Origin: Myxococcus stipitatus DSM 14675 | Lineage (GTDB): Bacteria; Myxococcota; Myxococcia; Myxococcales; Myxococcaceae | Length of the DNA stretch: 64,000 nucleotides | Reading direction: 5' to 3' | Assembly (NCBI RefSeq): GCF_000331735.1 | Contig: NC_020126.1 | Span: forward strand, 3,534,001 to 3,598,000 | Shown: piece after piece, positions 48,659 through 59,098 of the stretch | How the letters are laid out: every line of letters starts with the position of its first letter | Position numbering within the stretch: position 1 is the first letter of the stretch | Translations under genes and position numbers: made by a program | The notes under the pieces: generated by a model | The model's database searches: none | Seen by the model: the letters and a program-made list of their open reading frames with translations, nothing else | Told to the model about the DNA's origin: nothing

Positions 48659-50101
48659 ATGAGACGCTTCTACCTACTCAGCAGCACGCTGGTCCTCGCC
48701 CTGGGTTGCGGCAAGGACGACAACTCCAAGAACAAGGCGGAGTGTCATCTTGCCGCCATCAACCTGTCGGCCTGTCAGCGTTCGACTCTTGCCCAGGTGC
48801 AGCGCTCGGGTGTGTGGAACGTCAACGTCGACTTGAATGACGGGACGGGCTCCGCGGGTGCGCTGCGGCTGACGGGCGGCGCGGGGCCGCTCATGTTCAA
48901 CATGCCCGTGACGGAGCAGGAGTCCACCGACGACACCCTCTACATGGCGTCGGAGAGCCTGGACACCTTCAACCGGAAGGTGCGCTTCGCTCTCGCCGGG
49001 TGTGATGCGACCGCGCCCGACAAGATGCGGGGCACGTTCCGTCGCTGTGTGGACGGCGAGGTGGATCTGGAGGGCACCTTCACCGCGGCGCGGCTCGGGC
49101 GGCGCGCGAGCGAGTCCGAGGCGTCCGGGCTGGAGCTGGTGAAGGAGATCGCGCTGCCGCGTGGCGCCGCGTCGGAGCTGGCGGTGGTGGGGGGCTACGC
49201 CTACGTCCCCGCGGGGAAGGAAGGCCTCTTCGTCTACGACGTGCGCAATCCCGCCGAGGCGAGGAAGGTGGGCGAGTACAAGCCGTCGGATGACACCTAC
49301 TTCGACGTGGCGGCGTCGGGGACGCTGCTCTACGTGGCGAGCCAGAAGAGCGGCCTGGTCATCTACAACATCGAGGACCCCGCGAACCCCAAGCCCTTGC
49401 GCTCGCTGACGCAGCCGTCGGTGGTGTTCGAGACGCTGTCGGTGGAAGGCAACTTCCTGCTGGCGGGCTCGCCTTCTCCCAACGGGGAGATCCTGGTCTT
49501 CGAGTTGACGAATCCCGCGGAGCCGAAGCTGGCGGACCGCTACTTCGTCGAGGGCGCCGAGCCGTCCGCAAGCGAGGTTCCCCGTGAAGTGAAGGTCTTC
49601 GGCGACAGGCTGTACGCGAGCATGTGGACGTTCGGCCTCACGGTGTCGGACTTCACGAAGCCGTCGGACCCGAAGCTGTTGGGCCGCTTCAGCGGTGCTC
49701 CGTCGCGCGGGTTGGCGGTGGGCAACGTGGGGGGCCGCCTGCTGGCGTTCTCGGGAGGCGAGGACTGGGGTGCGTACCTGAGCGTGCTGGACGTGGTGAA
49801 CCCCGCGAACATCCTCCAGGTGGGGACGTTCCGGCTCCGGGATGAGGTCTCCATCCGCGCGATGGCGCTGGCGGGGTCCAAGCTCTACGTCGCGTACTAC
49901 CAGGATGGTCTGCGTGTCCTGGACGTGAGCAACCCGAGCGACGTGCGGCAGTTGGCCTACTACAACACGTGGCGCGAGACCGACGCCAACCGCGGAGGTT
50001 CGTTCTTCGAGGGCCTCACCAACGTGGTGGTGCCGGGCGATGGATACATCTACGCGACGGAGTCGTCGCGCGGCCTGCTCATCTTCCGCGAGACGAACTG
50101 A
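48659..50101 (+). CDS. LVIVD-repeat lipoprotein
   Basis: 480 residues from the ATG at 48659. Lipoprotein signal ends LALGCGK (Cys16), then a Cys-containing beta domain (about 20-150) and an LVIVD-type propeller (about 160-480) with repeated blades: GLFVYDVRNPAEARKVGEY, GLVIYNIEDPANPKPLRSL, GLTVSDFTKPSDPKLLGRF and GLRVLDVSNPSDVRQLAYY. LVIVD proteins are secreted or surface beta-propellers with presumed binding roles. It diverges from the protease/barrel gene, whose product also has a propeller, so a shared surface task is possible. Confidence 0.85.
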   Translation: MRRFYLLSSTLVLALGCGKDDNSKNKAECHLAAINLSACQRSTLAQVQRSGVWNVNVDLNDGTGSAGALRLTGGAGPLMFNMPVTEQESTDDTLYMASESLDTFNRKVRFALAGCDATAPDKMRGTFRRCVDGEVDLEGTFTAARLGRRASESEASGLELVKEIALPRGAASELAVVGGYAYVPAGKEGLFVYDVRNPAEARKVGEYKPSDDTYFDVAASGTLLYVASQKSGLVIYNIEDPANPKPLRSLTQPSVVFETLSVEGNFLLAGSPSPNGEILVFELTNPAEPKLADRYFVEGAEPSASEVPREVKVFGDRLYASMWTFGLTVSDFTKPSDPKLLGRFSGAPSRGLAVGNVGGRLLAFSGGEDWGAYLSVLDVVNPANILQVGTFRLRDEVSIRAMALAGSKLYVAYYQDGLRVLDVSNPSDVRQLAYYNTWRETDANRGGSFFEGLTNVVVPGDGYIYATESSRGLLIFRETN

Positions 50102-50113
50102 CGCGGAGCTCGT

Positions 50114-50139
50114 GAGGCGCCTCGACGTCGAGGCGCCTC
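50114..50139. terminator. Perfect 26-bp palindrome after the LVIVD gene
   Basis: GAGGCGCCTCGAC and its exact complement meet at ACGT's centre, 13 bases past the stop codon. There is no T run. It may terminate transcription or form a cruciform, and it is immediately followed by the tail-repeat array. Confidence 0.5.
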
Positions 50140-50166
50140 GCTGAGACGCGAGCCGTGACGCACCAC

Positions 50167-50407
50167 CTCACGGCGTGAGCAGCGAGTTGCCCGTGATGGA
50201 CCGCCCAGGCTGTCGCGCGATGAGCATCGAGACGTGACGCGACGCCTCACGGTGTGAGCAGCGAGTTGCCCGTGCCGGACCTCCCCAGGCTGGCGCCGCG
50301 ATGAGCATCGAGACGTGGCGCGACGCCTCACGGCGTGAGCAGCGAGTTGCCCGTGCTGGACCTCTCCAGGCTGGCGGCGCGATGAGCATCGAGACGTGAC
50401 GCGACGC
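50167..50407. repeat. Three-unit tandem array derived from the 3' end of the next gene
   Basis: Units at 50167-50245, 50246-50326 and 50327-50407 (79, 81, 81 bases). About 54 bases of each unit copy the true end of the minus-strand gene at 50408-50462 (stop codon and last 17 codons); the other 27 bases (TGAGCATCGAGACGTGACGC and neighbours) are absent from the gene. Each unit starts with the near-palindrome CTCACGGCGTGAG, which overlaps the stop codon. Confidence 0.9.
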
Positions 50408-50408
50408 C

Positions 50409-51746
50409 TCACGGCGTGAGCAGCGAGTTGCCCGTGCCGGACCTCCCCAGGCTGGCGCCGCGAGCGAGGCTGAGCTCGACGCCCGCATCCTGAAGGGCGA
50501 CCCGAGCGGCGTAGGTGTCACTGCGCCCCGCCGCGTCGCGAGCCAGGTTGATGAGCGCGCGTGCGCGTTCGGCATGGACGGTGACGGTGCCCTGCCCGAA
50601 CTCCGACGCACTGGAGCGGATGTCCGCGAAGGCGCTGTCGGCGAAGTCCAGGGCGTTGTCGACATCGTTGTCACCCTGTTGCAGCGCCGCGTCCGCCGCG
50701 AGCATCCACTCCCCAGCGCTCTGCAAGGTCGAGAGCCGCTGCTGGCGAGACTGCTCGGTCTCGACGGCTCGGTCTCCGAACGTGTCGACCTGCTCCTGCG
50801 TGGCTTGCGCATTCTGCTCGATCACGTCGTCTCGCGCGCTGAGCTCCGCTTCGAGTTGGTCGACTCGCTGGCGGAGTTGCTCCATTTCGGCGGCACTCGC
50901 TTGGGGGGCGGGCGCCGCGGGCTGTGTCGTCGACGAACTGGAGGCAGCTCCCGCGGGTGCCTCACCCCCCGCCATGGCATTCCCAGGCGCCAGCTGCTGG
51001 GGTGGCGTTGCGTCCGTTGCGGCGCCGGACAGGTTCGCGGGGGTGCCCGCTCCACCCGTGCCTGAAGTCGTCTCAGGTGGACTTGTGGGAGCTTCACCCG
51101 CTCCGGTTGATGGACCCTCCGTGGGCGTCGTCGAACTGCTCGTCCCCGAGCCGCCCGAGGCCTGCTGCTGGCCGTTGGCCTGTTCCTCCGCCGTCGGGCC
51201 GAAGCCGCCCATCATGTCCTGCGCATCAGGCTGCGCGGCCTCGCTTCCACCTGAGCCGCCCGTTGCTGGTGCTCCCGACGGCTGCGCGGGTTGTTGGGTG
51301 GAGCCGCTCGAGCCCGAGCCACCCACCCCTGGAGCTTGAGTGCCCGAGGCCGCTCCAGCCGGGGCTGTCTGAGCCGAGCCCTGGGGCTCGGCTTCCCCCG
51401 ACTCCACCGGTTCGGGAGCGGGGGCGGGGATGGGTTGATAACGCTGATACGTCTCGTGGATGGCGACATCGCCCGAGGTCGCAGGGGCTTGGCCATCCGG
51501 GAGGACGGGCGTGATATCAAATCCTCCACCGTACGCGCCCGAGGCAGGGCTCTCGCCTCCAGGCATCTGCTGGATGACGAAGTTGGGAGGGAGCCAGGCG
51601 CCCTCCGCCTCCTCGGTGGCCTGCTCGTTGGCGTCCCGCAGGGCGCTCGCGGAGTTGTCCCGGACCGACGGGTCCAAGGGCGAAGGGTACTCGCTGCTGA
51701 CTTGCGCCAGGCTCAAGCTGGCGGCGATGGCGATCCACGGGTGCAT
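50409..51746 (-). CDS. Secreted low-complexity protein with coiled coil, unknown function
   Basis: 445 residues. A short signal-like start (MHPWIAIAASLSLAQV) is followed by a region with QRYQPIPAPAPEP and about 190 residues of Ser/Gly/Ala/Pro/Gln/Thr-rich disorder (about 105-280). A coiled coil comes next (MEQLRQRVDQLEAELSARDD, about 287-310), then a helical tail (LDFADSAFADIRSS, RALINLARDAAGRSDTY) ending GRSGTGNSLLTP. The tail resembles helical repeats of lipoprotein-associated OmpA partners, but no domain is assigned. The last 17 codons are the seed of the array beyond its stop. Confidence 0.7.
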   Translation of the reverse strand: MHPWIAIAASLSLAQVSSEYPSPLDPSVRDNSASALRDANEQATEEAEGAWLPPNFVIQQMPGGESPASGAYGGGFDITPVLPDGQAPATSGDVAIHETYQRYQPIPAPAPEPVESGEAEPQGSAQTAPAGAASGTQAPGVGGSGSSGSTQQPAQPSGAPATGGSGGSEAAQPDAQDMMGGFGPTAEEQANGQQQASGGSGTSSSTTPTEGPSTGAGEAPTSPPETTSGTGGAGTPANLSGAATDATPPQQLAPGNAMAGGEAPAGAASSSSTTQPAAPAPQASAAEMEQLRQRVDQLEAELSARDDVIEQNAQATQEQVDTFGDRAVETEQSRQQRLSTLQSAGEWMLAADAALQQGDNDVDNALDFADSAFADIRSSASEFGQGTVTVHAERARALINLARDAAGRSDTYAARVALQDAGVELSLARGASLGRSGTGNSLLTP

Positions 51747-51913: not shown

Positions 51914-53575
51914 TCAGAGACTGATGCGCAAACCCACGCCCAGCTCGAAGGTGGGAGTCGGAATCGTGTAGCCAGGGATGGTCCTCCCGTCGACGACGAG
52001 CTCCGGCACGGTGAAGCCCATGCGGAACTCACCGCCCTTGTGGCCGTAGTGGACGGCGCCGTACGCCTCCAGCGTCAGGTAGCTGAGCGCGCGGTGAGTC
52101 ACGTTGAGCCGACTGATGTACGACTTGTCCGAGAGGTTCCCGAGCGTGAACAGGTTGAAGGACGTGCGCTCGAGCGGCCCCGGGTCGTTGAGGAACAGGT
52201 ACGCGGAGGTGTAGTGCTGGCCGATGTACAGAGGCTGGAAGGCGTTCTGCCTCATCAAGAAGGGATAACCCAGCGAGCTCGTGTAGCCGGTCGAGTTGTA
52301 GAAGTACTCGACGCCCAGTACCGCGAGGTCGTTGTCACCGTACCCGAAGCTGTAGTTGGCGCCGGCCGTCACCTGGGGAGTGAGGCCCGAGGGATGATAC
52401 TCCTCCACCGTCGCATCGCCTTTGATGATGTCCTCGACGGTGGCGCCCGCGGGGAGTCGGTACAGCGGCTGATCCGTGCCCTTCTTGAGCCCCAACTCTC
52501 CGTAGACGTCGATGGGGCCCACGGCCGAGGACAGGTCGAACCCGAAGCGCGGCTTGCGCCCGCGCTGAGCCACGACGCTGACGGCCAACTCCGCGGGGCC
52601 CATGACGACCTCGGCGCGCAGCGCACCACCGATGCGGCTGAGCCGGTTGACCGGCCGCTCGACTGCCTCGGGAGGGGGCTGGGTGGGCGCGGTGGGCTCG
52701 GTAGGCTCGGTGGGGAGACCCCCGGTGTTGTTGTCGACCAGGGCGCCCGTGTCGGTGCCCAGGTCATCAATCACCGCGATGCCGTAGAAGTTCCAGCCCT
52801 TCGCCTCCCAGGGGACATGGACCTTCACCATGGACACGCCGGTGCGCAGGTCCACGAAGGCCAGTGGGTTGCGCCGCTGCGGTGAGAGGAAGTCGGTGGG
52901 ATTCCAGATCTGCGCCGAGCCCCACTTCACGTGCTGCTTGCCGACGGTGAAGAACACCGTCCGGTCGAAGTCGAAGCGGAGCCAGGCCTGGTCCAGCAGC
53001 ACGCGGGGATTGGAGGGCGCGTTGGCGTCCGTCGCCGTGGGGACGGTGGGGTCGTAGCTCAACCGCCCCACCACGAACCCGCGCAGCCGCTCCATGGGCC
53101 GGGCATCGAAGTACCCGTCCACCAGCGTGGGCGCGGCGAACGACGTGTTGCCGAACGATGTGCCCTCCGTCGCGGCCGCGAAGCCGCGGAGGTAGAACTG
53201 CCCGCCAATCTGCAGCGGGTCGTCCACGGCTTCATTGGAGTCGAAGGCGCTGCGAGTCCCTGGCCCCGACAGGGCGGTCCCATCCCGGTCCCCTGGCTCC
53301 GGAGGCGCCTCCGTCAGCGAGGGCTGCCGCTCCACCGCATCACCGGTATTGCTGGCATCGGCGTTCGCCGAAGGAGCGGGGTCCTCGCCGAACAGCGCGT
53401 CCTCGCTGGGGCGGTCCGGCGACGGTGACGCCGTCGGAGTGTCCGCCTGCGCGGGCTTCTCATCGCCACCGCCGAACAGCGCATTCTCGTCCGGCCGCTC
53501 GGACTGACCGAGCGCGGCGGTGCCGGCGAGGGCCACGGTCAGCGCCGTGGCCACGGTGAGCGTGCGCGAGCTCAT
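51914..53575 (-). CDS. Outer-membrane beta-barrel protein, last gene of the Lol-like operon
   Basis: 553 residues. Signal peptide RTLTVATALTVALAGTAALG, then an acidic disordered segment (25-100) with two motif copies, ENALFGGGD (30-38) and EDALFGED (58-65). A barrel of about 450 residues follows, with strands such as FYLRGFAAATEGTSFG, WLRFDFDRTVFFTVGKQHVKWG and a terminal FELGVGLRISL ending in Leu. The pattern NPTDFLSPQRRNPLAFVD resembles DUF1302-type barrels. The start overlaps the LolA-like gene's stop (ATGA). Likely the outer-membrane end of an export route. The second motif is shared with the 702-residue permease. Confidence 0.8.
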   Translation of the reverse strand: MSSRTLTVATALTVALAGTAALGQSERPDENALFGGGDEKPAQADTPTASPSPDRPSEDALFGEDPAPSANADASNTGDAVERQPSLTEAPPEPGDRDGTALSGPGTRSAFDSNEAVDDPLQIGGQFYLRGFAAATEGTSFGNTSFAAPTLVDGYFDARPMERLRGFVVGRLSYDPTVPTATDANAPSNPRVLLDQAWLRFDFDRTVFFTVGKQHVKWGSAQIWNPTDFLSPQRRNPLAFVDLRTGVSMVKVHVPWEAKGWNFYGIAVIDDLGTDTGALVDNNTGGLPTEPTEPTAPTQPPPEAVERPVNRLSRIGGALRAEVVMGPAELAVSVVAQRGRKPRFGFDLSSAVGPIDVYGELGLKKGTDQPLYRLPAGATVEDIIKGDATVEEYHPSGLTPQVTAGANYSFGYGDNDLAVLGVEYFYNSTGYTSSLGYPFLMRQNAFQPLYIGQHYTSAYLFLNDPGPLERTSFNLFTLGNLSDKSYISRLNVTHRALSYLTLEAYGAVHYGHKGGEFRMGFTVPELVVDGRTIPGYTIPTPTFELGVGLRISL

Positions 53576-54354
53576 CGGCTCTTGCTCTCGAGCCAGGCCT
53601 TGGTGAAGAGGTTGGCCTCCAGGGAGCGCAGGTCCACCGACTTGATGAGCACGATGGTGGAGTTGGCCTTCTCCACCTCGTCGTAGAAGCGGATCTCCTC
53701 GGGGTACCAGACGTCGGCGCCCTTGGACTCGCTGAAGACCTTCTTCCAGCGCGGGTAGAGCGCGGTGCGCATCAGGCGGCCGGACAGCGCGTACTCCTCG
53801 CGCTTGAGGATGTTGTTCGTGTCCTTGTCCACCCACAGCTTCACGACGGGGTAGGCCACGTCGATGTTGGGCTTCACCTTCAGGTTCAGCTTGTGGGCCG
53901 TGTACTTGCCCAGCTTGGCCTCGCCCTCGTAGGCCGGGTCGAACTCCTCGGCCAGGCGGGACTCGTCGAAGTCGGCGCGGCGGCTGTCGGTGCCGGCGAT
54001 GCGCTCGCGCTCCGTGCGCCGCTCCCACTTGCCCACGTTGGGGTCGTAGCTCCAGAGGTTCTTGTCCAGCCGCAGGTAGCCCTTGCCGGCCTCCGTCTTG
54101 GGCTTGCTGAAGAGAATCATCAGCTTGTCGTCGGCGTCGCGCCGGTAGACGAAGCCCTCGCGGACGTTGTCGGTTTTGTCCTTCTCCTTCTGCTCCAGGT
54201 AGATGTGCGCCTTGTAGTCGCCACCGTTGCGCTGCCGGTCGTCGATGACGGAGAGGATCTGCACCATGGCGGCCGGCTCCAGGGCCAGCGCCACGGGGGC
54301 GGACAGGAGGGCCACGGACACCGCCGCGGCGGACAGCAGGTTCTTGAGGCTCAT
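53572..54354 (-). CDS. LolA-like outer-membrane lipoprotein-sorting protein
   Basis: 260 residues. Signal peptide KNLLSAAAVSVALLSAPVALA, then the LolA-like fold common in exporter operons (PF17131-type): KAHIYLEQKEKDKTDNVREG, KGYLRLDKNLWSYDPNVGKWER, YPVVKLWVDKDTNNILKREEY. The half-barrel binds lipid or lipoprotein in the periplasm and carries it across. Spacing is 5 bases from the permease upstream and a 4-base overlap with the barrel gene downstream. It supplies the periplasmic step of the operon. Confidence 0.87.
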   Translation of the reverse strand: MSLKNLLSAAAVSVALLSAPVALALEPAAMVQILSVIDDRQRNGGDYKAHIYLEQKEKDKTDNVREGFVYRRDADDKLMILFSKPKTEAGKGYLRLDKNLWSYDPNVGKWERRTERERIAGTDSRRADFDESRLAEEFDPAYEGEAKLGKYTAHKLNLKVKPNIDVAYPVVKLWVDKDTNNILKREEYALSGRLMRTALYPRWKKVFSESKGADVWYPEEIRFYDEVEKANSTIVLIKSVDLRSLEANLFTKAWLESKSR

Positions 54355-54359
54355 GAGTG

Positions 54360-55661
54360 TCACCCGATGTGGTGCATCGCCGTCACGGGCTTGAGGCGCG
54401 CGGCGAGGAAGGAAGGAATCAGTGAGATGAGCGTGGTGCACCCGGTGATGAACACCATGGCGCCCAGGACGGAGCCCGCGTTCACGACCAGGTGCAGCCG
54501 GTCCGACATGATGAACATCGCCGCGGCCTCCGGCACGCCCACGTGGGCCGCGTCCACGGCCACGCACACGACGAAGCCGATGATGGCCCCCGCGAGCGTC
54601 CCCAGCGCGCCGAGCGTCATCGCCTCGAAGAGGAACATCACCATCACCCGGGTGCGCTGCATGCCGATGGCGCGCAGCGTGCCAATCTCCCGCGTGCGCT
54701 CCCGGATGGCGATCCACAGCGTGTTCATGATGCCCACGCCGATGATGACGAGCAGCACGAAGGTGAGGATGCCCGTCAACCCGTTGAGCGCCTTGAGCGT
54801 CCAGGTGATGAAGGACATCTCGTCCTCCCAGTTGGTGATGTCCAGCTTCTGGCCCGTCCACTCCTCGCGGTTGACCACGTCGAACTTGAACCAGAACGCG
54901 CGCGGGTCGTTGTCCATGAGGGTGTAGCCCGCGTCCGTCAGCAGCTGGCGCACCCGGGCCTGCACCTGGGCCATCTGCTTGAGGTCCTTGAGGTACAGGA
55001 AGATGGCGCCCGTGGAGTCCTCGCGAAGCTGGTACAGGGAGCGCAGCGTCTGCGAGGGCACGTAGACGTTGAAGTCGCTCATCATGCCCACGTCCGCGGC
55101 GATGGCCGCCACGCGCACGTCCACGGTGTTGTTGGTGCCGCGCATCGTGGGGGCGGCGATGGTGACGACGTCGCCCACCTTCACCTCGAGCCGCTTGGCC
55201 TGCTTCTCGAAGATGAGCACGGTGTTCGGCTGCGCCAGGTCGTCCATGGAGCCGGAGCGCACCTGCAGGACCTGGCGGAAGCCGGGCTCGTCCTTGACGT
55301 CGATGCCGCCGACGCCCACCTGCGAGGAGGTCTTCTCGCTGACGAGCTTCGCCCAGCCGCGCCCGCGCTGGACGGCGTAGTCCAGCTCCGGCACTTCCTT
55401 GCGGACCAGCTCGAGAATCTTCGGATAGGCGGTCACCACCGGCGCGGCCTGGCCGGAGGTGATCTTGTAGAAGCCCGCCACGTTGACGTGGCCGGTGCCC
55501 AGGGTGGTGGCGGACCGGAGCATGGTCTCCTCCATCCCCTGGGACAGCCCCATGAGGATGACGAGCAGCGCGGTGACGCCGGCGATGGCCCCGCCCAGCA
55601 GCAGCGTGCGCCGCCGGTGGGTGCCCAGGTTTCGGAATGCGATGAGGAAGAGCTGGAACAT
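54360..55661 (-). CDS. FtsX/LolE-type ABC permease
   Basis: 433 residues: N-terminal helix (LLLGGAIAGVTALLVILMG), a MacB-like periplasmic domain (about 45-300), then three C-terminal helices with the FtsX hallmark NTLWIAIRERTREIGTLRAIGMQRTRVM and the ending SFLAARLKPVTAMHHIG. This is the layout of LolC/LolE and MacB, which extract substrate from the outer leaflet of the inner membrane rather than pump it from the cytoplasm. 4 bases after the larger permease gene. Confidence 0.9.
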   Translation of the reverse strand: MFQLFLIAFRNLGTHRRRTLLLGGAIAGVTALLVILMGLSQGMEETMLRSATTLGTGHVNVAGFYKITSGQAAPVVTAYPKILELVRKEVPELDYAVQRGRGWAKLVSEKTSSQVGVGGIDVKDEPGFRQVLQVRSGSMDDLAQPNTVLIFEKQAKRLEVKVGDVVTIAAPTMRGTNNTVDVRVAAIAADVGMMSDFNVYVPSQTLRSLYQLREDSTGAIFLYLKDLKQMAQVQARVRQLLTDAGYTLMDNDPRAFWFKFDVVNREEWTGQKLDITNWEDEMSFITWTLKALNGLTGILTFVLLVIIGVGIMNTLWIAIRERTREIGTLRAIGMQRTRVMVMFLFEAMTLGALGTLAGAIIGFVVCVAVDAAHVGVPEAAAMFIMSDRLHLVVNAGSVLGAMVFITGCTTLISLIPSFLAARLKPVTAMHHIG

Positions 55662-55665
55662 GGCC

Positions 55666-57774
55666 TTACTCGTCCGTCTGCATGGCCTGCAGCGGCGACA
55701 CGCGCGTCGCGAGGAACGCGGGGTAGAAGGTGGAGATGGCGGACACCAAGAGGACGATCACGAGCGCGGCGATGAGGTTGCCGGCGCTCAACGTGGGGTA
55801 CAGCCGGGGACCGGAGAAGAAGAAGTAGAGTGCCTCGTTGTTCGCGGGGATGCCGCTGGAGCCCAGCATGCTCATGATGCCGCTGCCGACCAGGGCGCCA
55901 CCCGCGCCGAAGACCAGGCCCAGGAGCACGGTCTCCACCAGCACCATGCTGAGGATGAAGGAGCGCTGCGCGCCAATGGCTCGCATCGTCCCCACCTCCC
56001 GCACCCGCTGGAGCGTGGCCATCATCATCGCGTTGTTGATGATGACCAGGGCGACGACGAAGATGATGAACACGGCGAAGTACAGCACCAGCTTCGCCAG
56101 CAGCACGAACTGACCGATGAAGCCCGCGGCCTGTTGCCATGACGCCGCCCGCAGCTTCATCCCCGCGTCGGTGCCCACCTGCTTGAGCTCCTCCATCGTC
56201 TCTTGGAGCTTCGTCGGGTCCTTGAGGATGACGGCCGTGCTGAGCACCACGCCCTTCTCGATCTCCTCCTGGGAGTAGACCCGGGCCACCTGGTCCTCGC
56301 GGTGCACCGCGCCCTGGTTGCCCTCGAAGGCCTTGGCGTCGTCGACGATGCCCGTCGCCGCGTCCGCCACCAGCGTGTTGCCGCTGTCCTCGCCGAACAG
56401 CGCGTCCTCGGCGCTGGCGCGGTCCACCGCCTTGATGCCGCTGTTCTTCTGGAGCTCGGCGATCTCCGCCTTCCGGTCCGGGCTGAGGTAGCCGTAGAGG
56501 TCCCGGAAGGTCATCAGGTCCATCAGGTTGATGAGCCCCGCCATGGTGGACTTCTCCAGGCCCTTGAACTGGTAGGTGCCGTAGACCTTCACGTTGACGC
56601 TCTGCACGTAGCCGGTGCGCGTGAAGGCGCTGATGGTGAGGCTGTCGCCCATGCGCAGGCGGTACAGGTCCAGCAGCGGGGCCAGCTCCGCGTAGAACTG
56701 CTGGTAGCGCGTGTCGAAGTTCTCGTCCGTGGTGGTGAAGAACTCGGGCAGGAGCTTGTCCAGGGTGGACTCCTTGCTGCCGAGCACCTTCTGGAGCCGC
56801 TCCACCGCCTGGCGCGTCTTGACGGGGTCCAGCTGGAAGATGATTTCACGCGTCTGGGTCTGGTTCTCCTTCACCCACCGCTGCATCTGCGGGTCCGCGG
56901 CGATGAGCTTCCCGTTGAGGTCCCGCTCCGTCTTGATGTTGTCCAGGCGGAACGCCGTCTTGAGCTTGAAGAAGTTCTCGTAGAAGAACTTGGAGACGAG
57001 CATGCCGCGCTTGCCCTTCGGCACGGCCTCTCCGTCCACGACCTCCATGCGGTCGAACGTGCGCTGGAACGTGTCCAGGTCCGTGCCCACGTAGCGCAGC
57101 TCCAACAGGTCGCCGTCCGGCAGCTGCGGGGCGATGCGGTTCTCCAGGAACTCCAGCGACGCGAACGGGTCCGCGTCGAAGCCGCTCCAGAACGCGTCGG
57201 TGCGCGCGCGGGCGAGCGCCTCCACCTCCATGGGGTCCACGGCGGCCTCGGTGAGCACGTTCTGGCTGTTGGCCCGCTGCTTCTCCATGAGGGCGACAAT
57301 CTGACGGACGTGGGCCTTGACGCTGTCGATGCTCTCCGTGAGGGCCGGCGTCTCTCCCTGCTCCGCGCGCTTCTTGTAGAGGTCGCGGAGCCGCGCGAGC
57401 GTCAGGTCCACCGTGTTGCCGGAGGTGATGAGCGCGCTGCTGGTGCCCATGGGCACCACCGTCTTCACGTTGGGGTGCTTCTCCAGGACGGGCCTGACGC
57501 GGCTGAAGTCAGCCAGCACCGTCAGGTCCGGCTCGCCGCTCATGCCGCCGTACAGGCTCAGCTCGTCCTTGGACTCGTCCGAGTAGACCTGGATGTGGCC
57601 GGCCACGCTGCCGATGATGCTGCGGCTCATCGAGCCGTCGATGCTGTCGAGCAGCGCGCCGCCCACGACGACGAGCAGCGTGCCGAAGAAGATGATGCCG
57701 CCGATGAGGATGTTGATCTTGCTGGTGAACAGGTTGCGGAAGGCCACCTGCAGCAGCAACCGGAGCTGCCCCAT
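55666..57774 (-). CDS. Large FtsX/LolC-type ABC permease with extended periplasmic domain
   Basis: 702 residues. First helix ILIGGIIFFGTLLVVVGGALL, a periplasmic domain of about 500 residues (usual members have 200-250), and three C-terminal helices with QRVREVGTMRAIGAQRSF and ending TRVSPLQAMQTDE. The extra part holds coiled-coil stretches (DLYKKRAEQ, RQIVALMEKQRANSQ) and the motif EDALFGED at 456-463, encoded by the same 24 bases (56386-56409) as in the operon's outer-membrane gene (53381-53404). One base after the ATPase stop. Confidence 0.9.
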   Translation of the reverse strand: MGQLRLLLQVAFRNLFTSKINILIGGIIFFGTLLVVVGGALLDSIDGSMSRSIIGSVAGHIQVYSDESKDELSLYGGMSGEPDLTVLADFSRVRPVLEKHPNVKTVVPMGTSSALITSGNTVDLTLARLRDLYKKRAEQGETPALTESIDSVKAHVRQIVALMEKQRANSQNVLTEAAVDPMEVEALARARTDAFWSGFDADPFASLEFLENRIAPQLPDGDLLELRYVGTDLDTFQRTFDRMEVVDGEAVPKGKRGMLVSKFFYENFFKLKTAFRLDNIKTERDLNGKLIAADPQMQRWVKENQTQTREIIFQLDPVKTRQAVERLQKVLGSKESTLDKLLPEFFTTTDENFDTRYQQFYAELAPLLDLYRLRMGDSLTISAFTRTGYVQSVNVKVYGTYQFKGLEKSTMAGLINLMDLMTFRDLYGYLSPDRKAEIAELQKNSGIKAVDRASAEDALFGEDSGNTLVADAATGIVDDAKAFEGNQGAVHREDQVARVYSQEEIEKGVVLSTAVILKDPTKLQETMEELKQVGTDAGMKLRAASWQQAAGFIGQFVLLAKLVLYFAVFIIFVVALVIINNAMMMATLQRVREVGTMRAIGAQRSFILSMVLVETVLLGLVFGAGGALVGSGIMSMLGSSGIPANNEALYFFFSGPRLYPTLSAGNLIAALVIVLLVSAISTFYPAFLATRVSPLQAMQTDE

Positions 57775-57775
57775 G

Positions 57776-58525
57776 TCAGTGACCCTCCGCGCCCGCGGCC
57801 ATGGCCCGCTTCGCCTCGGACGGGGTGAGCCGGTCCAGGAACTTGCCGTCCGCCAGGCGCACCACCGCGTTGGCGTGGCTCATCACCTTGGCGTCGTGGG
57901 TGGAGAAGATGAAGGTGGTGCCCTCCTTCTGGTTGAGCTCCTTCATCAGGTCGATGATGTGCTGGCCCGTCACCGAGTCCAGGTTGGCGGTGGGCTCGTC
58001 CGCCAGCACCAGCTGGGGCCGGGTGACGAGCGCGCGCGCCACGGCGACGCGCTGACGCTGGCCACCGGACAGCTCGTTGGGGCGGTGCTTGGCGTGGTTG
58101 GCCAGACCCACCTGCTCCAGCAGCTGCATCACGCGCTCGTGGCGCTGGTTCTTGTCCAGCTTGCGCTGGAGCAGCAGGGGGAACTCCACGTTCTGGAAGA
58201 CGCTGAGCACCGACACCAGGTTGAAGCTCTGGAAGATGAAGCCGATGGTGTGCAGGCGCAGGTGCGTCAGCTGCCGCTCGGAGAGCTGCTTGGTGTCCTG
58301 CCCGGCCACGCTGACCACGCCCGTGGTGGCGGTGTCCACGCAACCGATGAGGTTGAGCAGGGTCGTCTTGCCGCTGCCGGACGGGCCCGCGATGGAGATG
58401 AACTCACCAGGGTGCACCTGGAGATCCACGCCGCGCAGCGCCGGGACGACCACCTTGCCCAAGGTGTAGTCCTTGGTGACGTTGCTGATGGAGACGATGG
58501 GTGAGTGGGGGACTGCGGCGTTCAT
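57776..58525 (-). CDS. LolD/MacB-type ABC transporter ATPase
   Basis: 249 residues from the ATG at 58523-58525. Walker A GPSGSGKTT, Q-loop FIFQSFNL, signature LSGGQRQR, Walker B LVLADEPTANLD, and switch His in FSTHDAKVM. The text ANLDSVTG and the missing membrane part match LolD/MacB partners. It powers the two permeases downstream. The start overlaps the regulator gene's stop by 4 bases. Confidence 0.93.
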   Translation of the reverse strand: MNAAVPHSPIVSISNVTKDYTLGKVVVPALRGVDLQVHPGEFISIAGPSGSGKTTLLNLIGCVDTATTGVVSVAGQDTKQLSERQLTHLRLHTIGFIFQSFNLVSVLSVFQNVEFPLLLQRKLDKNQRHERVMQLLEQVGLANHAKHRPNELSGGQRQRVAVARALVTRPQLVLADEPTANLDSVTGQHIIDLMKELNQKEGTTFIFSTHDAKVMSHANAVVRLADGKFLDRLTPSEAKRAMAAGAEGH

Positions 58526-59022
58526 GCGGTGCGTCCTTTCGATGCCTTGGGGGTGCGGGGCGAGGGGCGGGCACGACGTGAGGCGCGCCACCGCTCGGCG
58601 ATACCGGCCATCTCGGCCAGGTAGAAATCACAGAAGTCCGCCGCGTCTCGCAGGTGCTGCCGGTTCGCGAGCTGCGGCGCGGACAGGGCCTCCTGGCACA
58701 GGCGGACGAACGCCTTGACGCTGTCCTCCGCCGTGCGAAGGCGCGACTCCCAGCCGTCGCTGTTGACGACGTAGTAGTGCTGTCGGTCTCCAGGGACGCT
58801 GACGGGGTCCACCAGCCCGATGCTCATGATGGCCCGGATGTTGGTGGAGACGGAGGCGGCGCTCACCTTGAGCACGCGGGCGATCTGCTGGAGCGACAGC
58901 GGCTCGTCCGCCAACATCAAGAGCCCATGGATGCGCCCGCTGATGCGGGTGCTGCCCTGCCGCTCGAAGTACAGCCCCATCGACTCGATGAAGCGTTGCT
59001 CCGCGGCGCTCAGTTCCTTCAT
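58522..59022 (-). CDS. GbsR/MarR-family transcriptional regulator
   Basis: 166 residues from the ATG at 59020-59022, chosen over one eight codons earlier because GGAGG lies just upstream. Winged helix: RISGRIHGLLMLADEPLSLQQIARVLKVSAASVSTNIRAI, then wing PGDRQHYYVV, and a C-terminal helical region (DSVKAFVRLCQEALSA). GbsR-type proteins are usually repressors that respond to small molecules. It heads the six-gene exporter operon and a large dyad 77 bases upstream is its probable site, so autorepression is expected. Confidence 0.88.
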   Translation of the reverse strand: MKELSAAEQRFIESMGLYFERQGSTRISGRIHGLLMLADEPLSLQQIARVLKVSAASVSTNIRAIMSIGLVDPVSVPGDRQHYYVVNSDGWESRLRTAEDSVKAFVRLCQEALSAPQLANRQHLRDAADFCDFYLAEMAGIAERWRASRRARPSPRTPKASKGRTA

Positions 59023-59098
59023 CCCTGCCTCCGTCCCACCCGACATGGCCGAGCGCGACGGACATCCGCCTGGGCCAGGGTGGCACCCGGCATCTAGT

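Follow-up and report, generated by a model that had tools for sequence, protein, structure and literature searches.

How a soluble carrier protein senses its departure from the inner-membrane pump and its arrival at the correct outer-membrane acceptor is, to our knowledge, not settled for Lol-like lines devoid of LolB. This question is raised by an operon of Myxococcus stipitatus DSM 14675 that lies within a 64,000-nucleotide stretch of contig NC_020126.1 (positions 3,534,001 to 3,598,000, hereafter the window, whose numbering is used for the operon). Its genes are carried by the minus strand, in the order putative helix-turn-helix regulator, LolD-like ATPase, permease 1 (702 residues), permease 2 (433 residues), LolA_like carrier and outer-membrane beta-barrel. 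Permease 1 and the barrel have in common a short acidic-hydrophobic peptide, which is conserved in both proteins among homologous operons, and a paralogous pump and barrel of the same genome appear to have another one in common. This suggests that such peptides tell the carrier protein its loading and unloading sites. A duplicated docking peptide would be a simple and testable answer to the problem of carrier targeting, i.e. one peptide for two membranes.

An octapeptide common to the pump and the barrel

The sequence GAGGACGCGCTGTTCGGCGAGGAC is found exactly at positions 53381–53404 of the window, within the gene of the barrel (51914–53575), and at positions 56386–56409, within the gene of permease 1 (55666–57774). 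Both copies are on the minus strand and, as a preliminary description of this DNA had claimed, are read in frame as EDALFGED; in permease 1 the octapeptide corresponds to residues 456–463. The barrel gene also contains, 28 residues before EDALFGED, the related copy ENALFGGG pointed out by the same description (53465–53488, minus strand), right behind the signal peptide. EDALFGED is the sole 8-mer common to the two proteins, all their common peptides of at least five residues fall inside it, and none of 2000 shuffled barrel/permease pairs had any 8-mer in common. A BLAST search with 70 nt of the barrel tail matched no other place of the 10.35 Mb genome than these two. The identity of the DNA is only modest evidence: for one peptide encoded by two genes with this codon use, identical codons are expected with a probability of about 0.08. 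What matters is the peptide. The codons of the motif differ from genome to genome while the peptide persists in both genes throughout the phylum.

A genome-wide family of motif-bearing proteins was looked for in the same genome with two DNA patterns and was not retained. The first pattern gave 12 sites versus 7 when read backwards, and the wider pattern E-[DENK]-x-[LMI]-F-G gave 16 versus 10. After translation of all 16, three proved to be the two barrel copies and the permease 1 copy, which are the only ones located in a seemingly exported linker. The other 13, judged by eye, lie in cytosolic-looking proteins (e.g. the sigma-54 activator-like protein of L233), in doubtful frames or in a membrane-protein-like frame (L116). 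In the genomes of seven relatives, many sites were found among the matches listed.

Conservation of the motif in homologous operons

At E≤0.001, 193 of 195 genomes from the phylum gave matches to permease 1, many of which were weak and of about the strength expected from general FtsX-type permeases. Two samples of homologues were used. The first comprises 79 homologous regions, with a barrel match in 74 and a carrier match in 75; the samples overlap in genomes and together provide a non-redundant set of 136 loci. The strict motif was defined as E-x-x-L-F-G for the permease and as [ED]-x-x-[LMI]-F-G for the barrel.

All 80 rows of the permease alignment (the window permease and 79 relatives) have LFG at the aligned site. 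In 66 sequences, i.e. that of the window and 65 from named genome records, Phe460 is invariant (100%) and Glu456 (98%), Leu459 (94%) and Gly461 (94%) are nearly so. Conservation averages 34% per column over residues 462–507, versus 55% over the whole protein. The strict motif is present in 124 of the 136 non-redundant permeases. Among the 12 others, two have Asp in place of Glu (L074 and L089) and four keep most of the motif (AEDAFFG in L202, AEAELFS in L203, AESAMFG in L216 and VESALFE in L224). More decayed versions occur in L196, L212, L214, L215 and L221, whose records bear the titles Bacteriovorax, Bdellovibrio or Bdellovibrionales; the remaining permease without the strict motif is that of L231.

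The barrel tail gives a similar picture. The strict motif was found in 70 of 79 automatically delimited tails, and in two copies in 33 of them, versus a mean of 0.19 and at most 4 of the 79 tails after shuffling (1000 rounds). This set leaves out 57 of the 136 loci, which have no barrel or a tail that the script did not delimit. Of the nine tails that lack the strict motif, those of L083 and L108 were cut wrongly yet have the motif, and that of L225 lost it to the fixed trim of 18 residues. With a second delimiting method and a relaxed pattern, whose chance rate alone is about 2.5 in 79 tails, the motif was found in 112 of 117 barrels (71/71 in the first sample, including the window, and 41/46 in the second); another 11 of the 128 barrels were not delimited, and by eye all 11 have at least the relaxed motif. 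In the non-redundant set, 96 barrels were examined (30 of the 136 loci have no usable barrel and 10 more were not delimited), of which 91 have the relaxed motif and 85 the strict one. The five barrels devoid of the relaxed motif are those of L172, whose frame seems broken by eye and whose sequence has unknown bases, and of L196, L214, L215 and L221. Measured in 67 tails from a cleavage site roughly estimated with an A-x-A rule, the motif lies at a median distance of 5 residues and is therefore usually found at the N-terminus of the mature barrel.

Homologous operons that kept the genes and lost the motif would have spoken against the preliminary description. Among the homologous operons examined, nearly all have retained the motif on both sides and its clearest losses are joint, L224 and L203 being partial exceptions. 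The barrels of L196, L214, L215 and L221, all from genomes labelled Bdellovibrio or Bacteriovorax, lack the motif, and the motifs of the accompanying permeases are decayed too (IEAMFG, IENLFS, IENLFA and SDMFK), and L229, titled Silvanigrellales, has the motif in both proteins.

Two contigs of metagenome-assembled genomes titled Klebsiella pneumoniae (L225 and L226) bear the operon, with a permease 36–37% identical to that of the window; these labels are probably wrong.

Predicted structures of the two motif-bearing proteins

AlphaFold2 models were built for permease 1, with the 66 sequences, and for the barrel. In the model of permease 1 (mean predicted local distance difference test, pLDDT, of 86.6), the motif belongs to a helix at residues 452–460 (block pLDDT of 66), beside a disordered loop that directly follows the motif (residues 464–485, positions 56320–56385, minus strand, pLDDT below 50) and whose columns are poorly conserved. 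This agrees with the placement of the permease copy in the oversized periplasmic domain by the preliminary description, the motif bordering a disordered loop of that domain. The barrel copies had been placed in a disordered N-terminal segment facing the periplasm, and in the model the N-terminus of the mature barrel is indeed disordered. The mean pLDDT of this model is 78.8, with values below 50 at residues 17–57 and 62–116 (model numbering, which is that of the gene minus one), within a tail that spans about residues 18–117 of the gene product (53225–53524, minus strand). Three helices are predicted in this tail; H29–33 (ENALF) and H57–60 (EDAL) are the two motif copies and the third is located at 96–102. 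With low confidence, the motif may thus be described as a short helical turn beside or within a disordered stretch.

Permease 1 is an FtsX-type permease with a LolC/LolE/MacB-like fold, the feature by which Type VII ABC transporters are recognized, and it matches Pfam FtsX above the cut-off. Its best matches in the PDB are LolE and LolC (9rld_E, a LolE, Z 22.8, rmsd 5.9 over 389 residues; 7mdx_A, Z 22.0, rmsd 3.7 over 373 residues), and a further match is the periplasmic domain of LolC from a crystal with LolA (6f3z_C, Z 16.4, rmsd 3.3 over 195 residues). The LolC Hook, with which the motif loop might be compared, is a permease element that inserts into the LolA cavity. At the sequence level, the alignment of permease 1 to LolC and LolE of Escherichia coli spans only the C-terminal part, the motif loop being outside. 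Neither permease reaches the curated NCBIfam lolCE equivalog (55.9 bits for the 702-residue protein and 85.6 bits for the 433-residue protein versus 362.45). Another possible relative of the motif in permease 1, DELSLYG (57547–57567, minus strand), may be coincidental; D70, L72 and G76 are nearly invariant in 37 sequences, and the site reads DELxLFG in a number of relatives in the alignment.

The barrel coding sequence is best read as 51914–53575, which gives 553 residues. No Pfam or NCBIfam family was matched at E≤0.001, and the assignment as an AlgE/porin-like outer-membrane beta-barrel comes from the predicted structure and a fold search. Among the PDB matches listed, MOMP, AlgE and porins come closest in fold, and their overlap with the barrel is partial (Foldseek TM-scores of 0.3–0.45 by query length).

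A paralogous system with a seemingly shared peptide of its own

The same genome encodes a second permease 1 (2124394–2126427), accompanied by a separate permease 2 and LolA-like protein, beside what looks by eye like a nonribosomal peptide synthetase open reading frame. A second barrel is encoded about 16 kb from this cassette (2144202–2145560). The paralogous permease and barrel co-occur in the same 33 of the 96 genomes of the family, and in all 13 loci considered a separate LolA-like gene is part of the cassette. The set of paralogous permeases comprises 32 proteins selected with a hidden Markov model.

The strict LFG motif is absent from all 32 of these permeases, from the 31 loops and from the 31 paralogous barrels, six of which match the relaxed pattern (ERMFG, well upstream of the tail). 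It is found in the first-system barrels of 12 out of 12 other genomes that have the second system. At the aligned site, the paralogous loops read LQPAAIIEVP, LRPATILEEQ, LKPATVVEVE or FHPPDIVDAE, and 30 of the 31 fit a pattern written for them, approximately L-x-P-A-x-[IV]-x-[DE]. The tails of the paralogous barrels show LRPATITDES, LRPARIVDDA, LTVPTIVEAS or LRRPTVVETE. A weight matrix built solely on the loops gave a mean best score of 6.96 in the 21 non-redundant tails (of 31), versus 0.25 ± 0.74 for shuffles (maximum 2.66; none of 1000 reached the observed mean) and 1.38 for reversed tails. In an earlier version of this test (23 tails, 15 of them non-redundant), the first-system tails averaged −4.12. 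From these sequences, a second and different peptide appears to be common to the paralogous pump and barrel.

Some points weaken this second code. The pattern was defined from the permease loops after both loops and tails had been seen. Five of the 21 tails score 2.0 or less (L356, L358, L359, L370 and L372). In L366 and L368, the top match of the matrix differs from the segment picked by eye.

The two sets of carriers also differ. When 48 carriers of the first system were compared with 13 paralogous ones, 21 of the 67 strongly conserved positions were type-specific, 10 of them within residues 201–233. They include four basic residues (K60, R126, K211 and K229) and several hydrophobic ones (F82, L190, L194 and W203), which are candidates for reading an acidic-hydrophobic peptide.

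Permeases of the first system bear a weaker element, ATPG[LI]I[DE], behind the LFG motif (56320–56385 in the window, and relatives). It aligns with the peptide of the paralogous system, hinting that both peptides may derive from one ancestral loop. In L310/L354 (G116:C247), the paralogous barrel tail repeats an LRPATM-like unit, which resembles GELRPATMDDSG, about ten times in tandem, an expansion of the putative docking peptide.

Relationships with known systems

The operon resembles LolCDE–LolA, as judged from its genes and models, in having LolC/LolE-like FtsX-type permeases, a LolD-like ATPase and a LolA-like carrier. It differs from it by the size of permease 1 (702 residues, with an extensive additional periplasmic portion), by the inclusion of a porin-like outer-membrane barrel and by the occurrence of one short peptide in both permease and barrel. 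The sequence gives no sign of a lipoprotein substrate such as that of the Lol pathway. The nearest described cluster that was found is BBJ23-29 of Borrelia, in which, in the passages of the paper considered, a MacB/Lol-type ABC transporter, a LolA-like protein and an outer-membrane barrel occur together (PMC13078400). The component types are the same three, but the Borrelia barrel belongs to the Omp85 family, and these passages describe no shared peptide, the word 'motif' being absent from the main text.

In TonB-dependent transporters, an outer-membrane barrel engages a periplasmic partner through the TonB box, a short peptide located close to its mature N-terminus. The barrel studied here likewise bears a short peptide near its mature N-terminus; unlike the TonB box, this peptide is also found in an inner-membrane transporter. 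Features of TonB-dependent transporters, which combine a plug domain with a 22-strand receptor barrel, were looked for in the barrel: no plug or TonB-receptor Pfam family was matched at E≤0.001, and the PDB matches listed are AlgE, MOMP and porins. A search of the open-licence literature, from which subscription journals are largely absent and preprints wholly so, gave, among the records listed, nothing specific to the motif or to this type of operon, nor any report of a peptide shared by a pump and an outer-membrane barrel.

A model of carrier docking and its alternatives

On balance, we lean slightly towards the following model. The operon would encode a Lol-like trans-envelope export line made of a LolD-like ATPase with two FtsX/LolC-E-type permeases, a LolA-like carrier and a porin-like barrel, and one partner, most likely the carrier, would bind a common docking peptide at both membranes. 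This peptide, approximately [SDA]-E-x-x-[LMI]-F-G, would probably fold into one helical turn that bears acidic residues and exposes Leu-Phe. In permease 1 it would be presented beside a flexible periplasmic loop, and the mature barrel would show it, in most cases in one or two copies, on its floppy N-terminus. The carrier would dock on the permease copy for its loading, much as in E. coli, where the LolC Hook is what recruits LolA (PMC10865981), and would then dock on the copies of the barrel to unload at the outer membrane. Docking would thus be like-for-like at both ends, the linear peptide of the pump being an equivalent of the Hook that is repeated at the barrel. An acidic helical turn with Leu-Phe and a terminal Gly would suit a small hydrophobic pocket with basic surroundings. 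The sequences and models show the conservation of the peptide in both proteins, its position, the predicted disorder around it, its restriction to one system and the different peptide of the paralogous system; we infer its docking role, the LolA-like protein as its partner and the guidance of loading and unloading by binding.

The preliminary description had likewise seen the carrier as the obvious candidate partner, and had proposed a handover code between the two membranes. The different peptide shared by the paralogous pump and barrel supports this idea. Tentatively, and with somewhat less than even confidence, it is conceivable that myxobacterial export lines use system-specific address peptides, each read by its own LolA-like carrier, with at least two insulated codes per cell (E-x-x-L-F-G and approximately L-x-P-A-x-[IV]-x-[DE]). 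Two paralogous systems with different shared peptides would explain how parallel lines avoid crossing and, if true, export lines could be re-wired in a laboratory strain by exchange of an eight-residue peptide.

Several observations weigh against docking of the carrier at both membranes. The joint decay in L196, L214, L215 and L221 is probably a single evolutionary event. L224 has a decayed motif in the permease (VESALFEN) and keeps REEDLFGS in the barrel, and in L203, a Bdellovibrio sp. by its title, the barrel has LFG where the permease has LFS. Pairs of permeases 1 and 2 that bear the motif (L145–L149) have neither carrier nor barrel within the fetched stretch, and the motif may also have a function confined to the permease; each of these genomes has a full operon elsewhere (L084, L092, L086, L067 and L068), whose carrier and barrel these pumps may use. 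The confidence of AlphaFold2 is low at the motifs, about 66 in the permease and 34–42 in the barrel tail. Lastly, the E. coli Hook is described as poorly conserved in sequence in the passages considered (PMC10865981), unlike the present motif.

The main rival is a direct bridging of barrel and permease, in which the ABC transporter itself would bind the peptide. The permease copy would fill a site of the permease pair in cis and the barrel tail would take its place in trans, so that the barrel would be directly attached to the transporter and would gate or activate it. The carrier would then not be the reader. Such an arrangement seems rather unlikely to us; it fits the retention of the motif in permeases whose fetched stretch has no carrier gene and the long, flexible barrel tail with its frequent two copies (33/79 strict), but it would bypass the separate LolA-like carrier encoded in 75 of the 79 regions of the first sample. 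Binding of the motif by a general periplasmic protein encoded outside the operon, e.g. a chaperone, a protease adaptor or a cell-wall factor, is improbable. Short acidic-hydrophobic peptides are generally plausible ligands of chaperones and adaptors, yet the three copies of barrel and permease 1 are the only ones, of the 16 genome sites, in a seemingly exported linker (the others being judged by eye), and another shared peptide is found in the paralogous cassette, which has a LolA of its own.

A similarly small probability is given to the convergence of two unrelated structural elements on a common helix-capping pattern, the permease motif serving as a helix cap and that of the barrel as a signal-peptide-proximal or assembly element. 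Both are indeed predicted by AlphaFold2 as short helical turns right before Gly; this explanation is opposed by their joint presence or absence across the paralogous systems and the genomes labelled Bdellovibrio or Bacteriovorax, and by the second peptide shared by the paralogous pair. As for chance or gene conversion within one genome, codon bias could yield the 24-nt identity once the peptide is common, but the conservation of the motif in both genes across the phylum and beyond contradicts them and leaves them a negligible probability.

Other genes and features of the locus

The LolA-like periplasmic carrier, the presumed partner of the motif, is encoded at 53572–54354 (minus strand). It passes the Pfam gathering score of PF17131 (LolA_like) with 126.9 bits versus 30, and its best solved relative by sequence is 3buu. 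Its stop codon overlaps the start of the barrel gene (53572–53575). Permease 2 (54360–55661, minus strand) matches MacB_PCD and FtsX. The ABC ATPase (57776–58591, minus strand) is LolD-like by its Pfam and NCBIfam matches, with 233 bits versus the 307.75 of the curated LolD equivalog, which is not reached. Upstream, a candidate helix-turn-helix regulator (58522–59046, minus strand) is MarR-like, with a score just under the Pfam cut-off.

In L148, genes resembling by eye a metallo-beta-lactamase (MBL)-fold protein and a short-chain dehydrogenase are inserted between permeases 1 and 2. Downstream of the barrel gene of the window, a gene encoding a proline/serine-rich protein has repeated DNA units at its 3' end (about 50050–50812), and its peptide blocks recur in several frames.

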